Shown: piece after piece, positions 28,853 through 43,730 of the stretch
Position numbering within the stretch: the stretch's first letter is position 1
Layout: each line of letters begins with the position of its first letter
DNA from: Bradyrhizobium xenonodulans
GTDB lineage: Bacteria; Pseudomonadota; Alphaproteobacteria; Rhizobiales; Xanthobacteraceae
Length of the DNA stretch: 64,000 bases
NCBI RefSeq assembly: GCF_027594865.1
Contig: NZ_CP089391.1
Span: 5,858,501 to 5,922,500, forward strand
Reading direction: 5' to 3'
Position numbers and translations under genes: made by a program
Notes under the pieces: generated by a model
The model's database searches: none
Told to the model about the DNA's origin: nothing
Seen by the model: the letters and a program-made list of their open reading frames with translations, nothing else

Positions 28853-29395
28853 TCACATCCCTTCAGGCCCGCGGCCGATCGCGGCAACGCCGGTGCGCGA
28901 CACCTCGACGAGGCCGAGCGGGCGCATCAGATCGATATACTGGTTGATCTTGTCGGTATTGCCTGTGATCTCGAACACAAAACTCTCGGTGGTGGCGTCG
29001 ATGACGCGGGCGCGGAACGCATCCGCCAGCCGCAGCGCCTCGACGCGATGCTCGCCCTGCCCGCGCACCTTCACCATCGCGAGCTCGCGCTCGATCGAGC
29101 GCTTGGTCTGGGTCATGTCGACGACCTGATAGACGGGGATCATGCGGTCGAGCTGGTGCTTGATCTGCGCGATCACCATCGGCGTGCCCGTGGTGACGAT
29201 GGTGATGCGCGACAGATGCTTCTGGGCCTCGGTCTCCGAGACCGTGAGGCTTTCGATGTTGTAACCGCGGCCCGAGAACAGGCCGATGACGCGCGCGAGC
29301 ACGCCCGGCTCGTTCTGCACGAGCACTGCGAGCGTGTGCGTCTCGTTCGGATCGTGACGCTCCTCGATGAAATAGGCGGATGCGGGCTGGTTCAT
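28853..29395 (-). CDS. ilvH: Acetolactate synthase small (regulatory) subunit
   Basis: A 180-residue regulatory subunit of acetohydroxyacid synthase. I use the ATG at 29395 (MNQPASAYFIEE); upstream in-frame codons run into a dispersed repeat. The ACT domain (HTLAVLVQNEPGVLARVIGLFSGRGYNIES, about 17-46) binds the feedback amino acid, usually valine, and the C-terminal half completes the regulatory fold. It lies downstream of ilvI with a repeat-filled 144-base gap. Confidence 0.97.
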   Translation of the reverse strand: MNQPASAYFIEERHDPNETHTLAVLVQNEPGVLARVIGLFSGRGYNIESLTVSETEAQKHLSRITIVTTGTPMVIAQIKHQLDRMIPVYQVVDMTQTKRSIERELAMVKVRGQGEHRVEALRLADAFRARVIDATTESFVFEITGNTDKINQYIDLMRPLGLVEVSRTGVAAIGRGPEGM

Positions 29396-29417
29396 TGTCG
29401 TCCCCTTATTCTTTCTT

Positions 29418-29526
29418 GTCATGCCCCGCGAATGCGGGGCATCCAATAATCACCAGCGTCAAGAGTCTCACATCTGCCGCGGCGTACTGGATCGCCCGGT
29501 CAAGCCGGGCGATGACAGCGGAGTTT
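29418..29526. repeat. Dispersed palindromic repeat between ilvI and ilvH
   Basis: Two hairpins: GCCCCGC-GAAT-GCGGGGC (29423-29440) and ATCGCCCGG-N5-CCGGGCGAT (29491-29513), flanked by GTCAT and GATGACAGCGGAGTTT. The layout is that of a common Bradyrhizobium intergenic repeat. It occupies almost the whole gap between two genes of one pathway, so it would fold in the ilvIH mRNA. Confidence 0.8.
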
Positions 29527-29539
29527 GCGGACATCGCGC

Positions 29540-31315
29540 TCACACCAGCGCCTTGCCGCCGGCAAATGCCTTTGCGGTGGCTTCGTCATTCGCCTGCTCG
29601 GGCAACAGCATCTCGTTATGCGCCTTGCCGGAGGGAATCATCGGGAAGCAGTTTTCCAGCGCGGCGACGCGGCAGTCGAACAGCACCGGGCGCTTGACCG
29701 AGATCATCTCCTGGATGGCGCCATCGAGATCGGCGGGCTTGTGCACCTGGAGACCGACGCCGCCATAGGCTTCAGCGAGCTTGACGAAGTCCGGCAGCGC
29801 CTCCGAGTAGGAATGCGACAGACGATTGCCGTGCAGCAGCTGCTGCCACTGGCGCACCATGCCCATGTACTGGTTGTTCAGGATGAAGATCTTGATCGGC
29901 AGCTCGTACTGAACCGCGGTCGACATCTCCTGCATCGTCATCTGCACCGAGGCATCGCCCGCGATGTCGATGACGAGGCTGTCGGGATGGGCAACCTGCA
30001 CGCCGACCGCGGCCGGCAGGCCGTAGCCCATCGTGCCGAGACCACCGGAGGTCATCCAGCGGTGCGGCTCCTCGAAGCCGAAGAATTGCGCCGCCCACAT
30101 CTGGTGCTGGCCGACCTCGGTCGTGATGTAGGTGTCCCGACCGCGCGTCGCCTCAAAAAGGGCCTGGATCGCGTGCTGCGGCAGGATGACGTCGTTGCTC
30201 TTCTTGTAATAGAGCGAATTGCGGGCACGCCACTGCGCGATCTGCTGCCACCACGCCTTGACGTCGGGCTTCTTCGCCTCCGCCTTGAACACCTGGAGGA
30301 TGTCGCCGAGGATGTTGCCGCAATCGCCGATGATCGGCACGTCGACACGGATGTTCTTGTTGATCGAGGACGGGTCGATGTCGATGTGGATCTTCTTCGA
30401 GCCCGGCGAGAACGCATCGACGCGGCCGGTGATGCGGTCGTCGAAGCGCGCGCCGACGCACAGCATGACGTCGCAGTCATGCATGGTCATGTTGGCTTCA
30501 TAGGTGCCGTGCATGCCCAGCATGCCGAGCCAGTTCTTGCCCGACGCGGGATATGCACCCAGGCCCATCAGCGTGGAGGTGATCGGGAAACCCGTGACCT
30601 CGACCAGCTCACGCAAGAGCTTGGTCGCCTCGGGGCCGGAATTGATGACGCCGCCGCCGCTGTAGATCACCGGGCGCTTGGCATTGGCGAGCAGCGACAC
30701 CGCCTTGCGGATCTGCGTCGCATCGCCCTTCACGCGCGGCGCGTAGGAGCGGTGCACGTCGGACTTGCGCGGCGGATGATAGGTGCCGGTGGCGAACTGG
30801 ACGTCCTTGGGCACGTCGACCAGCACCGGGCCGGGACGGCCCGTGGTCGCAACGTAAAACGCCTCGTGCAGCACTTTGGCGAGATCGTTGACGTCGCGCA
30901 CCAGCCAGTTGTGCTTGGTGCAGGGGCGCGTGATGCCGACCGTGTCGCATTCCTGGAACGCGTCGTTGCCGATCAGATGCGTCGGCACCTGGCCGGAGAT
31001 GCAGACCAGCGGGATCGAGTCCATCAGCGCGTCGGTCAGCGGCGTCACCATGTTGGTGGCGCCGGGGCCGGAGGTCACCAGCGCCACGCCCGGCTTGCCG
31101 GTCGATCGGGCATAACCCTCGGCGGCATGGCCCGCGCCCTGCTCGTGGCGGACCAGAATGTGCTGGACCTCGCTCTGCTGGAAGATCTCGTCATAGATCG
31201 GAAGCACGGCGCCGCCGGGATAGCCGAAAATGTCGGTCACGCCATGATCGATGAGCGCGCGAACGATCATCGCGGCGCCGGTCATCTGGTTCGGATCGTG
31301 GCTCTTGTCGCTCAT
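29540..31315 (-). CDS. ilvI: Acetolactate synthase large (catalytic) subunit
   Basis: A 591-residue ThDP-dependent enzyme that condenses pyruvate with pyruvate or 2-oxobutyrate, the first committed step to Val, Leu and Ile. The N-terminal domain opens with MTGAAMIVRALIDHGVTDIFGYPGG; the catalytic Glu is in HEQGAGHAAEGYAR. The middle FAD domain and the C-terminal ThDP-Mg motif GDASVQMTMQEMSTAVQYELPIKIFILNNQ are intact. Full length. Its expression is preceded by the leader-peptide attenuator at 31373-31550. The name ilvB would be equally valid. Confidence 0.98.
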   Translation of the reverse strand: MSDKSHDPNQMTGAAMIVRALIDHGVTDIFGYPGGAVLPIYDEIFQQSEVQHILVRHEQGAGHAAEGYARSTGKPGVALVTSGPGATNMVTPLTDALMDSIPLVCISGQVPTHLIGNDAFQECDTVGITRPCTKHNWLVRDVNDLAKVLHEAFYVATTGRPGPVLVDVPKDVQFATGTYHPPRKSDVHRSYAPRVKGDATQIRKAVSLLANAKRPVIYSGGGVINSGPEATKLLRELVEVTGFPITSTLMGLGAYPASGKNWLGMLGMHGTYEANMTMHDCDVMLCVGARFDDRITGRVDAFSPGSKKIHIDIDPSSINKNIRVDVPIIGDCGNILGDILQVFKAEAKKPDVKAWWQQIAQWRARNSLYYKKSNDVILPQHAIQALFEATRGRDTYITTEVGQHQMWAAQFFGFEEPHRWMTSGGLGTMGYGLPAAVGVQVAHPDSLVIDIAGDASVQMTMQEMSTAVQYELPIKIFILNNQYMGMVRQWQQLLHGNRLSHSYSEALPDFVKLAEAYGGVGLQVHKPADLDGAIQEMISVKRPVLFDCRVAALENCFPMIPSGKAHNEMLLPEQANDEATAKAFAGGKALV

Positions 31316-31372
31316 TGGCTTGCTCCGGATGCGCTGTTGTCAGCGGCTTCGTTCGTGTCGGGATCGGCAAAT

Positions 31373-31394
31373 AAAAAAGGCCCCGAAGAGGGCC
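31373..31394 (-). terminator. Intrinsic terminator of the ilv attenuator
   Basis: On the minus strand GGCCC-N6-GGGCC is followed directly by six T residues. It stands between the leader peptide and the ilvI start (58 bases upstream of it), the expected site of an attenuator terminator. Confidence 0.85.
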
Positions 31395-31397
31395 CAT

Positions 31398-31446
31398 GCA
31401 CACCGCCTGTCATGTGGATGGCAGCTAGCCACCCCCGGCGGTGTGC
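31398..31446 (-). promoter_or_regulatory. Pause hairpin of the ilv attenuator
   Basis: GCACACCGCC (31398-31407) and GGCGGTGTGC (31437-31446) are perfect 10-bp complements. The arm transcribed first is the last part of the leader-peptide coding sequence, and the peptide stop codon (31425-31427) lies in the loop. Ribosome stalling upstream at Ile/Leu/Val codons would leave this arm exposed, while translation to the stop would cover it, as in classical attenuation. Confidence 0.75.
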
Positions 31447-31490
31447 CTGGGTACGACGGCGATAAGGAGTTTGGTAATAATGTTACGCAT
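31425..31490 (-). CDS. ilv leader peptide (attenuator)
   Basis: A 21-codon open frame from the ATG at 31490, too short for routine gene calling. It begins MRNIITKLLIAVVPRH and ends with Thr-Ala-Gly-Gly-Gly. Within residues 4-13 it has Ile-Ile, Leu-Leu-Ile and Val-Val: seven of ten residues are the three end products of the pathway it precedes. A sigma-70-type promoter lies about 25-35 bases upstream of its likely message start, and a pause hairpin plus terminator follow. Attenuation of ilv operons through such peptides is known in enterics and has been described for Caulobacter ilvBN. The ribosome site is weak. Confidence 0.88.
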   Translation of the reverse strand: MRNIITKLLIAVVPRHTAGGG

Positions 31491-31522
31491 GGCAGGTGCC
31501 CGGCTTCCCAAAGGTTGCGCGA

Positions 31523-31550
31523 AACATAGCGGCCAAAGCCCGGATGTCAA
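31523..31550 (-). promoter_or_regulatory. Promoter of the ilvIH leader transcript
   Basis: On the minus strand TTGACA (31545-31550) is separated by 16 bases from TATGTT (31523-31528), a perfect -35 box and a 4-of-6 -10 box. The predicted start near 31516 lies about 25 bases before the leader peptide ATG. Confidence 0.75.
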
Positions 31551-31642
31551 GGCAATGCGGCCGATCCCGCGCGATTTTGGCAGTGTAGCGGTGTTCCCGG
31601 GGTTCGGCGAGAGGTAAATTCGGGAACCGGGGCACAAAAGCG

Positions 31643-32584
31643 TCAGTCGGGACCCCGTGCCGCGTTCACGATGGCGGCGAGCCATCCCCTCGCCTCCTCC
31701 GGCTTCACCCACTCGAATTGTGGCAATTGGTGTCGGAACCAGGTGAACTGGCGCTTGGCGTAGTGGCGGGTATCGGCCCGGCCGATCGTGGCGGCTTCCT
31801 CCAGGCTGAGCTCGCCGCGCAGATGCCGGATCAGCGCCGGCACGCCATGGGCCTTCATCGCCGGCAGCAGCGGATCGAGTTGGCGGGCGGCGAGCCGTTC
31901 GATCTCCTTCAGCGCACCGGCGCCCAGCATGGCATCGAAGCGGGCATCGATCCGGGCATAGAGCTCGTCGCGCTCGGGCGCGAGAAACACTGCGCGAAAA
32001 CTGTCCTTCGGCAATAGCGGCGGTTGGCCCTCGTGGTGCCAATCGAGCAGCGAACGGCCGGTCGCTTCGACCACTTCGAGCGCGCGCGCGATCCGGGTGC
32101 GGTCGCGCAGGTTCAATCGCTCGGCGGCGCGCGGATCGCGCCGCGCGAGTTCCGCGTGCAGCGCCTCGACGCCGTTGCGCTCCAGCCGCGCTCTCACATC
32201 GTCACGAACATCGGCGGGGATCGGCGGCACCACAGAGAGACCGGCCGTCAGGGCCTTGAAATAGAGCCCGGTGCCGCCGATGAAGATCGGCAGGCGTCCT
32301 TCGGCCTTCGCCTCTTCGAGAGCCTTGGCCGCATCACTCACCCAGGCGCCGGCCGAGAAATTCACGGCCGCATCGACGTGGCCATAGAGACGATGGGGAA
32401 CGCGCGCTTCCTCGCCATGGGTGGGGCGCGCCGTGATGATGCGGAGGTCGCGGTAGACCTGCATGGAATCGGCATTGATGACGATTCCGCCCGCGCTGAG
32501 AGCAAGCTCCAGCGCCAGCGCCGACTTGCCGCTGGCGGTCGGGCCTGCGATAAGCACGGCCTTGCTTGAATGCCCCTCGCTCAC
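31643..32584 (-). CDS. miaA: tRNA dimethylallyltransferase
   Basis: A 313-residue enzyme that adds the dimethylallyl group to N6 of A37 in tRNAs reading UNN codons. The P-loop is GPTASGKS (14-21), the catalytic Asp is in [11 protein letters not shown], and [22 protein letters not shown] and the C-terminal [12 protein letters not shown] binding helix are present. The start is a GTG at 32584. It is divergent from serB with their first codons overlapping or adjacent, and it lies upstream of the ilv leader in the same direction. Confidence 0.96.
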
Positions 32585-43264: not shown

Positions 43265-43362
43265 GTCAGGAGCTTAGACCGGGCGCGGCGATGGGGCCAA
43301 GATTACAGGTGAGCCCCTGGGGAACCTATCCCAAGGGAACATTGCGAGGGCCCTCGAAACAC

Positions 43363-43392
43363 CTGTCATTTGAAACCTTTGCCCCCTATATT
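43363..43392 (+). promoter_or_regulatory. Promoter of the tmRNA gene
   Basis: CTGTCA (43363-43368) and TATATT (43387-43392) are separated by 18 bases, a good sigma-70-type match. The predicted start near 43399 coincides with the expected 5' end of the acceptor half of the tmRNA. Confidence 0.65.
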
Positions 43393-43399
43393 GGGGGTG

Positions 43400-43730
43400 C
43401 CGGTTCGCCGGCTATGGAAATAAACGGTCGTCGCAATAAACCATTCGGACCCGGGGGCGGTACCCGGCGCCTCCACCAAAGCCCACCAGCGGGGCTACCC
43501 AAGAGCGGGCTTTGGCGGGGGCGAAATAGGATCGACGAGGGCGTAAAGGGCGAACTTTTTCCCGGTATTGTTCCGCCGTTATCGGGCTATGCAATAGTTG
43601 CCAACGACAACTTTGCTCCGGTTGCTCAGGCTGCGTAACGCAGTTTGAAAGACCATTCTGAAGTCCTAACGGGTTAAGCTCCGTTAGGCGGGGTTCGGAG
43701 GCACCTGGCAACAGAAGCCTCCACTTACCT
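43400..43730 (+). ncRNA. ssrA: Two-piece (permuted) transfer-messenger RNA
   Basis: Circularly permuted alphaproteobacterial tmRNA that frees stalled ribosomes and tags the nascent protein. The acceptor half comes first (about 43400-43478): T stem CCGGG/CCCGG, then CGCCTCC and the encoded ACCA end (43475-43478). A 38-base intervening segment is removed. The coding half starts at 43517 with GGGGGCG, which pairs with CGCCTCC (one G-U), and GAAATAGGATCGACG. The tag reads GCC to TAA at 43600-43638, encoding ANDNFAPVAQAA. Hairpins CCTAACGG/CCGTTAGG (43667-43690) and GGAGGC/GCCTCC near 43700-43728 close the piece. End positions are estimates. Confidence 0.93.

Follow-up and report, generated by a model that had tools for sequence, protein, structure and literature searches.

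Upstream of the acetolactate synthase genes ilvIH of Bradyrhizobium xenonodulans lies a leader that we read, with slightly better than even confidence, as a ribosome-mediated transcription attenuator in which the extended base of one hairpin (H) acts as antiterminator to an intrinsic terminator (T). By H we mean the whole structure: a 10-bp stem, an apical hairpin inside it and an extension at its base. This kind of element is well known, and leader-peptide attenuators are known for alphaproteobacterial ilvB and ilvBN. For the nitrogen-fixing symbiont Bradyrhizobium, the present leader would add a regulatory element of branched-chain amino acid synthesis that Rfam lacks, and codons that this genome seldom uses are kept in it. 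It also raises a puzzle: within the order Hyphomicrobiales both the leader and its hairpin show strong conservation, yet no antiterminator is predicted in most of the leaders examined. All positions are those of the window, the 64,000-nucleotide stretch analysed here (contig NZ_CP089391.1, positions 5,858,501 to 5,922,500).

The leader and its locus

The B. xenonodulans genome is a single contig of 8.28 Mb. Along the minus strand of the window the gene order is miaA (31643–32584), leader element, ilvI and ilvH, with serB on the opposite strand to all three genes. The gene that the element would control, ilvI (29540–31315, minus strand), encodes the acetolactate synthase large subunit (NCBIfam NF006581 and TIGR00118, above cut-off), and its protein is 97–99% identical to proteins of five named Bradyrhizobium records. 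The small subunit is encoded by ilvH (28853–29395, minus strand; the ATG at 29395 is taken as start), and the frame at 28856–29446 matches NCBIfam TIGR00119 and NF008864 above cut-off. Between the two genes (29415–29520) stand the short palindromes CGCCCGGCTTGACCGGGCG and ATGCCCCGCATTCGCGGGGCAT; similar letters near ilvI in L082, L087 and L107, read there in wrongly oriented stretches, suggest a dispersed repeat.

All features of the leader lie on the minus strand. The promoter (31523–31550) consists of TTGACA (31550–31545), a 16-base spacer and TATGTT (31528–31523), and transcription would start near 31516, leaving a presumed 5′ untranslated stretch of 26 bases (31491–31516). Contained in it, just past the presumed start site, is AACCTTTGGGAAG (31504–31516), which is nearly invariant in the Bradyrhizobium group defined below and showed no pairing with the leader in the loci of that group. 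The leader frame MRNIITKLLIAVVPRHTAGGG (31425–31490) runs through 21 codons and a stop, from ATG (31490–31488) to TAG (31427–31425), and its conservation suggests that it is translated. The putative control region covers codons 4–13 (31452–31481): Ile Ile Thr Lys Leu Leu Ile Ala Val Val.

The first arm of H, GCACACCGCC (31437–31446), lies inside the peptide frame and forms a perfect 10 bp with the second arm, GGCGGTGTGC (31398–31407); both arms covary across the order. The apical hairpin within (31416–31434) folds and is partly present in the alignment consensus. At the base of H, CCCA (31448–31451; codon 14 and the first base of codon 15) pairs with UGGG (31393–31396) in the predicted nascent fold of the window's leader, and the GGG of this second half is at the same time the first three bases of T (31373–31395). 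The GC stem of T (31395–31378; about −11.6 kcal/mol) leads into a run of six T (31378–31373), where transcription is expected to terminate. The prediction thus gives GGG (31395–31393) two possible partners, CCC (31451–31449) or the 3′ arm of T.

The initial annotation had described the promoter, the 21-codon frame, the 10-bp hairpin and the GC stem with six T, and we recover each of them to the base on the minus strand. It had also put the stop in the hairpin loop, and TAG does open the loop of the apical hairpin (31434–31416) inside the 10-bp stem.

Taken by itself, the window gives weak evidence for the element. The stretch from 30800 to 32000 holds a single promoter-like and a single terminator-like site, where shuffles average 0.2 and 0.4 respectively, and the single-sequence fold of the leader has a z of −1.64, with 13 of 200 shuffles as stable. 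An Rfam scan at gathering score matched no family to the leader element; tmRNA models alone matched in the window, where an alphaproteobacterial (permuted) tmRNA gene lies on the plus strand at 43360–43725 (316 bits).

Conservation of the leader

It is conservation that lifts the putative element above chance. Among 110 ilvI upstream regions (80 named, B. xenonodulans itself and 29 same-genus relatives), 103 have a leader, comprising a frame of 14–21 codons with an Ile/Leu/Val run and then a run of T; the frame or its start was set by hand in four of these (L066, L073, L099 and L101). The detector found no leader in L069, L070, L072 (which has only 33 bases upstream), L074, L077, L078 and L079. 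Leaving L072 aside, several of these loci are named Hyphomicrobium or Hyphomicrobiaceae, and genus-level neighbours have the leader.

The last Ile/Leu/Val pair stands exactly eight codons before the stop in 95 of the 103 leaders and is Val-Val in 93; the peptide differs between families while the Ile/Leu/Val run persists. A stem precedes the T run in 102. The exception is the metagenome-assembled L051, which keeps the frame but lacks, about 90 bases before ilvI, one arm of each structure, the second of H and the 5′ one of T, through either a deletion or an assembly fault; it was excluded from alignment A2 and from the folding sets. This survey (103/110 loci) supports the earlier claim that ilvIH has a leader-peptide attenuator, the control codons being conserved, and where free drift of the peptide codons among relatives was looked for, the codons proved to be kept.

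The Bradyrhizobium group comprises 44 loci (L001–L014 and L081–L110), delimited by ilvI identity and including two records named only Alphaproteobacteria or Hyphomicrobiales. In all 44, a TTGAC. box and a TA.... box stand 15–19 bases apart, a pattern imposed on the search, and the boxes are located 28–40 bases before the start codon; the presumed 5′ untranslated stretch has 26 bases in 41 loci and 25 in the other three. Frames of 21 codons occur in 43 of the loci and reduce to 28 distinct ones, which are not independent rows because of common ancestry. Ile5 (ATT), Leu8, Val13 (GTA), Pro14 and the presence of a stop are unchanged in all 28 distinct frames, codon 14 being CCC in 27 and CCT in one. 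Variation is seen at position 11 (Ala 12, Val 14, Ile 2), in the start codon (ATG 25, GTG 3) and in the choice of stop codon (TAG 21, TGA 6, TAA 1). Two of the kept codons are rare: in the 35 gene-like frames of the window, Val is encoded by GTA in 1.3% of cases and Ile by ATT in 7.6%.

H is likewise maintained in its outer stem. Across 62 distinct sequences of the order (57 others and five from the Bradyrhizobium group), 97.7% of cells are paired, against 86.8% in shuffles, and sliding the stem partner by one to three columns leaves at most 53.8% paired. Seven of the ten outer-stem pairs have changes on both sides, which only 1 of 500 shuffles matched. Within the Bradyrhizobium group alone covariation is weak, with two pairs changed on both sides, as many as 113 of 500 shuffles reach; the CCC:GGG extension is paired in 89.8% of cells there, with too little variation for a covariation test. 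L048 was dropped because its aligned stretch is the same as that of L042, and identical sequences were merged in the shuffle comparisons of pairing with T. To judge from the letters, then, the control codons, the stop, the rare codons, the exact spacing and the covarying stem argue for an attenuator.

Ribosome position and the terminator

The model that we favour entails a putative direction of response to amino acid supply. The leader frame would be translated while RNA polymerase moves on. With charged Ile and Leu tRNA plentiful, the ribosome would pass the control codons, open H and arrive at the stop; with the GGG that begins T left free, T would form and transcription would end at the U run. 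With Ile or Leu tRNA short, the ribosome would stall on Ile4–5, Leu8–9 or Ile10 and H would form ahead of it, its base extending to CCCA:UGGG and taking the first bases of T, so that the base of T could not close and transcription would continue into ilvI.

For every ribosome position we folded the nascent RNA, ending it in the loop of T; the ribosome was taken to cover the RNA as far as 12 bases beyond the point where the A-site codon begins. Sequestration was measured as the gain in free energy from allowing the 5′ arm of T to pair with upstream bases, by a folding method blind to kinetics, pseudoknots and proteins. Seven E. coli leaders served as positive controls: with the ribosome at or beside a control codon they reached −8.4 to −15.3 kcal/mol, and at the stop −0.0 to −3.7 kcal/mol. 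The 44 leaders of the Bradyrhizobium group had a median of about −7.5 at the early control codons and of −0.2 to −0.8 on the last three. Sequestration of −5 kcal/mol or lower was predicted in 42 of the 44 when the A site held Ile5 (eight codons ahead of the last Val), in 43 on Leu8 (five before it; the exception is L014), in 42 on Leu9 and in 34 on Ile10, these codon numbers being valid for the 43 leaders of 21 codons. It was predicted in none of the 44 on codons 11–13 and in six with the A site one codon past the last Val.

The early sequestration arises because CCCA at the base of H pairs with UGGG, whose GGG begins T; a ribosome on codons 11–13 covers CCC at 12-base coverage, and the predicted sequestration is lost in 44/44 leaders. 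With 15 or 18 covered bases, a different and weaker pairing appears at the last Val (−3.9 and −4.6 kcal/mol), so a role of Val is possible; the prevalence of Val-Val as the last pair (93 of 103 leaders) speaks for it too. The proposal that ilvIH senses charged Ile, Leu and Val tRNA jointly is thus only partly borne out, since folding backs stalls at Leu8 (43/44 leaders) and not at codons 11–13 (0/44).

Several comparisons bear on how specific this overlap is. Random 5-mers in place of CCCAG gave a mean of −2.1, with 10 of 300 as strong, and 3 of 24 synonymous codings of Pro-Arg, the real one included, reached the observed −6.6. Against same-composition shuffles of the bases before H, the Bradyrhizobium group had a median of −8.3 observed versus −5.9 shuffled (mean z −0.65), and 17 of 33 leaders exceeded their shuffle mean by more than 2 kcal/mol; the overlap of H with T is thus only moderately better than shuffles. 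In the full RNA the terminated fold is the lower (−46.5 versus −40.3), and with the ribosome at the stop a residual sequestration of −3.3 is left in the window's leader. Sequestration is predicted even without a ribosome (median −5.65), so that untranslated RNA would read through.

Two other pairings were considered and set aside. Taken as a classical 1:2 hairpin, the pairing of CCCAGG with the conserved 5′ stretch CCTTTGGG appears in the whole-RNA fold, but in nascent RNA its probability was only 0–0.27 (43 loci). The second arm of H paired with T more weakly than shuffles did. The initial annotation had called the attenuator complete, which is too strong, as we found no separate third alternative structure.

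Alternative roles of the hairpin

The antiterminator role of H makes a good hypothesis, which the folding model suggests and which competes above all with a pausing role. The initial annotation had taken the 10-bp structure for a pause hairpin; the hairpin is there, and we reread it as more likely an antiterminator because the pairing at its base, CCCA:UGGG, uses up the bases with which T begins. In the pausing alternative, which we consider unlikely, H would be a 1:2 hairpin at which RNA polymerase waits for the ribosome and which, once formed, leaves T free, and a stalled ribosome would have to break H so that its second arm could pair with the 5′ arm of T. H is positioned like the 1:2 hairpin of the E. 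coli trp leader, H and T are present together in minimum-energy folds, and in families without the overlap the median sequestration of T goes from −0.6 two codons earlier to −2.2 at the last control codon. The second-arm antiterminator that this alternative calls for is not seen, because the stretch from the stop to T pairs with T less than shuffles do, both in the Bradyrhizobium group (z +0.70, n 32) and in the others (z +1.05, n 66).

The 58 other leaders of the order bear on a further reading. Sequestration of −5 or lower was predicted in none of them at positions five to two codons ahead of the last control codon, in one at the codon before it and in two at that codon itself, the lowest values being those of L054 and L075; among 11 further same-order leaders, one (L203) reached −5.4, at its last control codon. 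A paired antiterminator formed in these other families from the bases before H was tried and was weaker than in shuffles (mean z +1.10, n 67). Although the order as a whole keeps H and the control-codon spacing, the 58 leaders are nearly without sequestration, as would be expected if the attenuator worked in all Hyphomicrobiales through an opposition of H to T beyond secondary structure (kinetics, tertiary contacts or a protein), with CCC:GGG incidental. We regard this as quite unlikely: there is no positive evidence for such a contact, and the overlap is present in 43 of the 44 Bradyrhizobium-group leaders.

A related and decidedly doubtful idea is that most Hyphomicrobiales have an ilvI attenuator without a base-paired antiterminator, in which a stall-dependent hairpin holding the stop controls a terminator that it does not overlap, and that the Bradyrhizobium group added the overlap; if true, a stalled ribosome would there block termination in a non-classical manner. 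That T merely terminates miaA, which ends about 250 bases upstream on the same strand, and that the short frame, open further upstream into miaA (ORF 31425–32042), has no regulatory use is very improbable, given the conserved start, stop and Ile/Leu/Val codons, the run that stays while the peptide changes between families, and the promoter-like site between miaA and the frame.

Comparison with known attenuators

The antiterminator reading of H finds its nearest parallel in Corynebacterium glutamicum ilvBNC, for which excerpts of PMC11857589 report mutational analysis supporting neighbouring hairpins that compete for a boundary trinucleotide; the control codons there, CUU and GUA, directly precede the antiterminator. 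As is predicted here, antiterminator and terminator are adjacent there, with the boundary trinucleotide common to both stems; by analogy this adds weight to the hypothesis of H as antiterminator. C. glutamicum differs in belonging to another phylum and in having an antiantiterminator hairpin, and no upstream antiantiterminator was found in the Bradyrhizobium group, where CCC pairs with the 5′ stretch at a probability of 0–0.27 (43 loci). The element would, on our model, work like the ilvBNC attenuator, and we do not class it as a member.

The E. coli trp, his, thr, leu, phe, ilvGMEDA and ilvBN leaders have in common with the present one a frame, control codons, a terminator and position-dependent sequestration. 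In the folding test their sequestration lasts over the last control codons, whereas that of the Bradyrhizobium leader ends before codons 11–13, and its overlap with the terminator, unlike theirs, is only 3–4 bases.

Among the Alphaproteobacteria, the Caulobacter crescentus ilvBN (ilvIH) leader is described, in the part of PMC4117421 covered (citing Tarleton et al. 1994), as acting by attenuation with tandem Ile and Val codons. By description it resembles the present leader in belonging to an alphaproteobacterial acetolactate synthase operon and in having a tandem-codon frame and a rho-independent terminator. Likewise, a screen of Alphaproteobacteria met a previously described ilvB leader peptide (an excerpt of PMC1273637, citing Vitreschak et al. 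2004), which by description also precedes an acetolactate synthase gene in these bacteria; Vitreschak et al. may already include the leader reported here.

In Sinorhizobium meliloti, trpL (rnTrpL) is a rhizobial leader-peptide attenuator that gives a short RNA (excerpts of PMC10117765 and PMC7298713). It differs in responding to tryptophan and in beginning directly at its AUG, as against the presumed 26-base untranslated stretch here. By eye, the −10-like box of Rhizobiaceae-type ilvI loci (L015–L068, for example L018 and L026) ends about 8 bases before the leader ATG, so that their leader mRNA may be leaderless, as those excerpts also describe trpL.

ilvB leaders are reported in Actinobacteria as well, and changing the candidate leader codons in Streptomyces coelicolor had no effect (excerpt of PMC1262725), a caution for any reasoning from leader codons. 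Rare codons in attenuators have been discussed in theory (excerpt of PMC1183508). A literature search on acetolactate synthase leaders found no paper, with most subscription journals outside its coverage, so that absence from print is not implied. In the excerpts covered we did not find stated the order-wide structure, the kept rare codons, or the boundary overlap in Bradyrhizobium and its absence elsewhere.

Distribution in the class

A covariance model of the element (R1) had one match in the B. xenonodulans genome, the copy described here (150 of 3355 first-look candidates were scored), and matches in 10 of 150 genomes of the order under stricter filters. R1 is too narrow to map the spread of the element, and upstream regions were therefore read directly. 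The class survey covered 84 genomes with ilvI matches, giving upstream regions from 79 of the 83 besides B. xenonodulans, and added 20 of 24 same-order genomes; 97 of the resulting 99 regions were long enough. A similar detector was positive in 17 of the 97; in a control with each region shuffled once, it was positive in 2 of 97. Judged by eye, 12 of the 17 are real and five are chance-like (L122, L124, L197, L198 and L204).

The 12 consist of 11 of the 20 added same-order regions and L146, which belongs to the same class and lies outside the order. Nine of the 11 are new, L200 and L208 being duplicates of L042 and L071. L146 has the leader MHRLVVIVGKWRMGR, and in the folding test its hairpin overlaps its terminator, with sequestration of −8.3 or lower up to the codon before the last Val; it would be either an independent case of boundary overlap or a relative.
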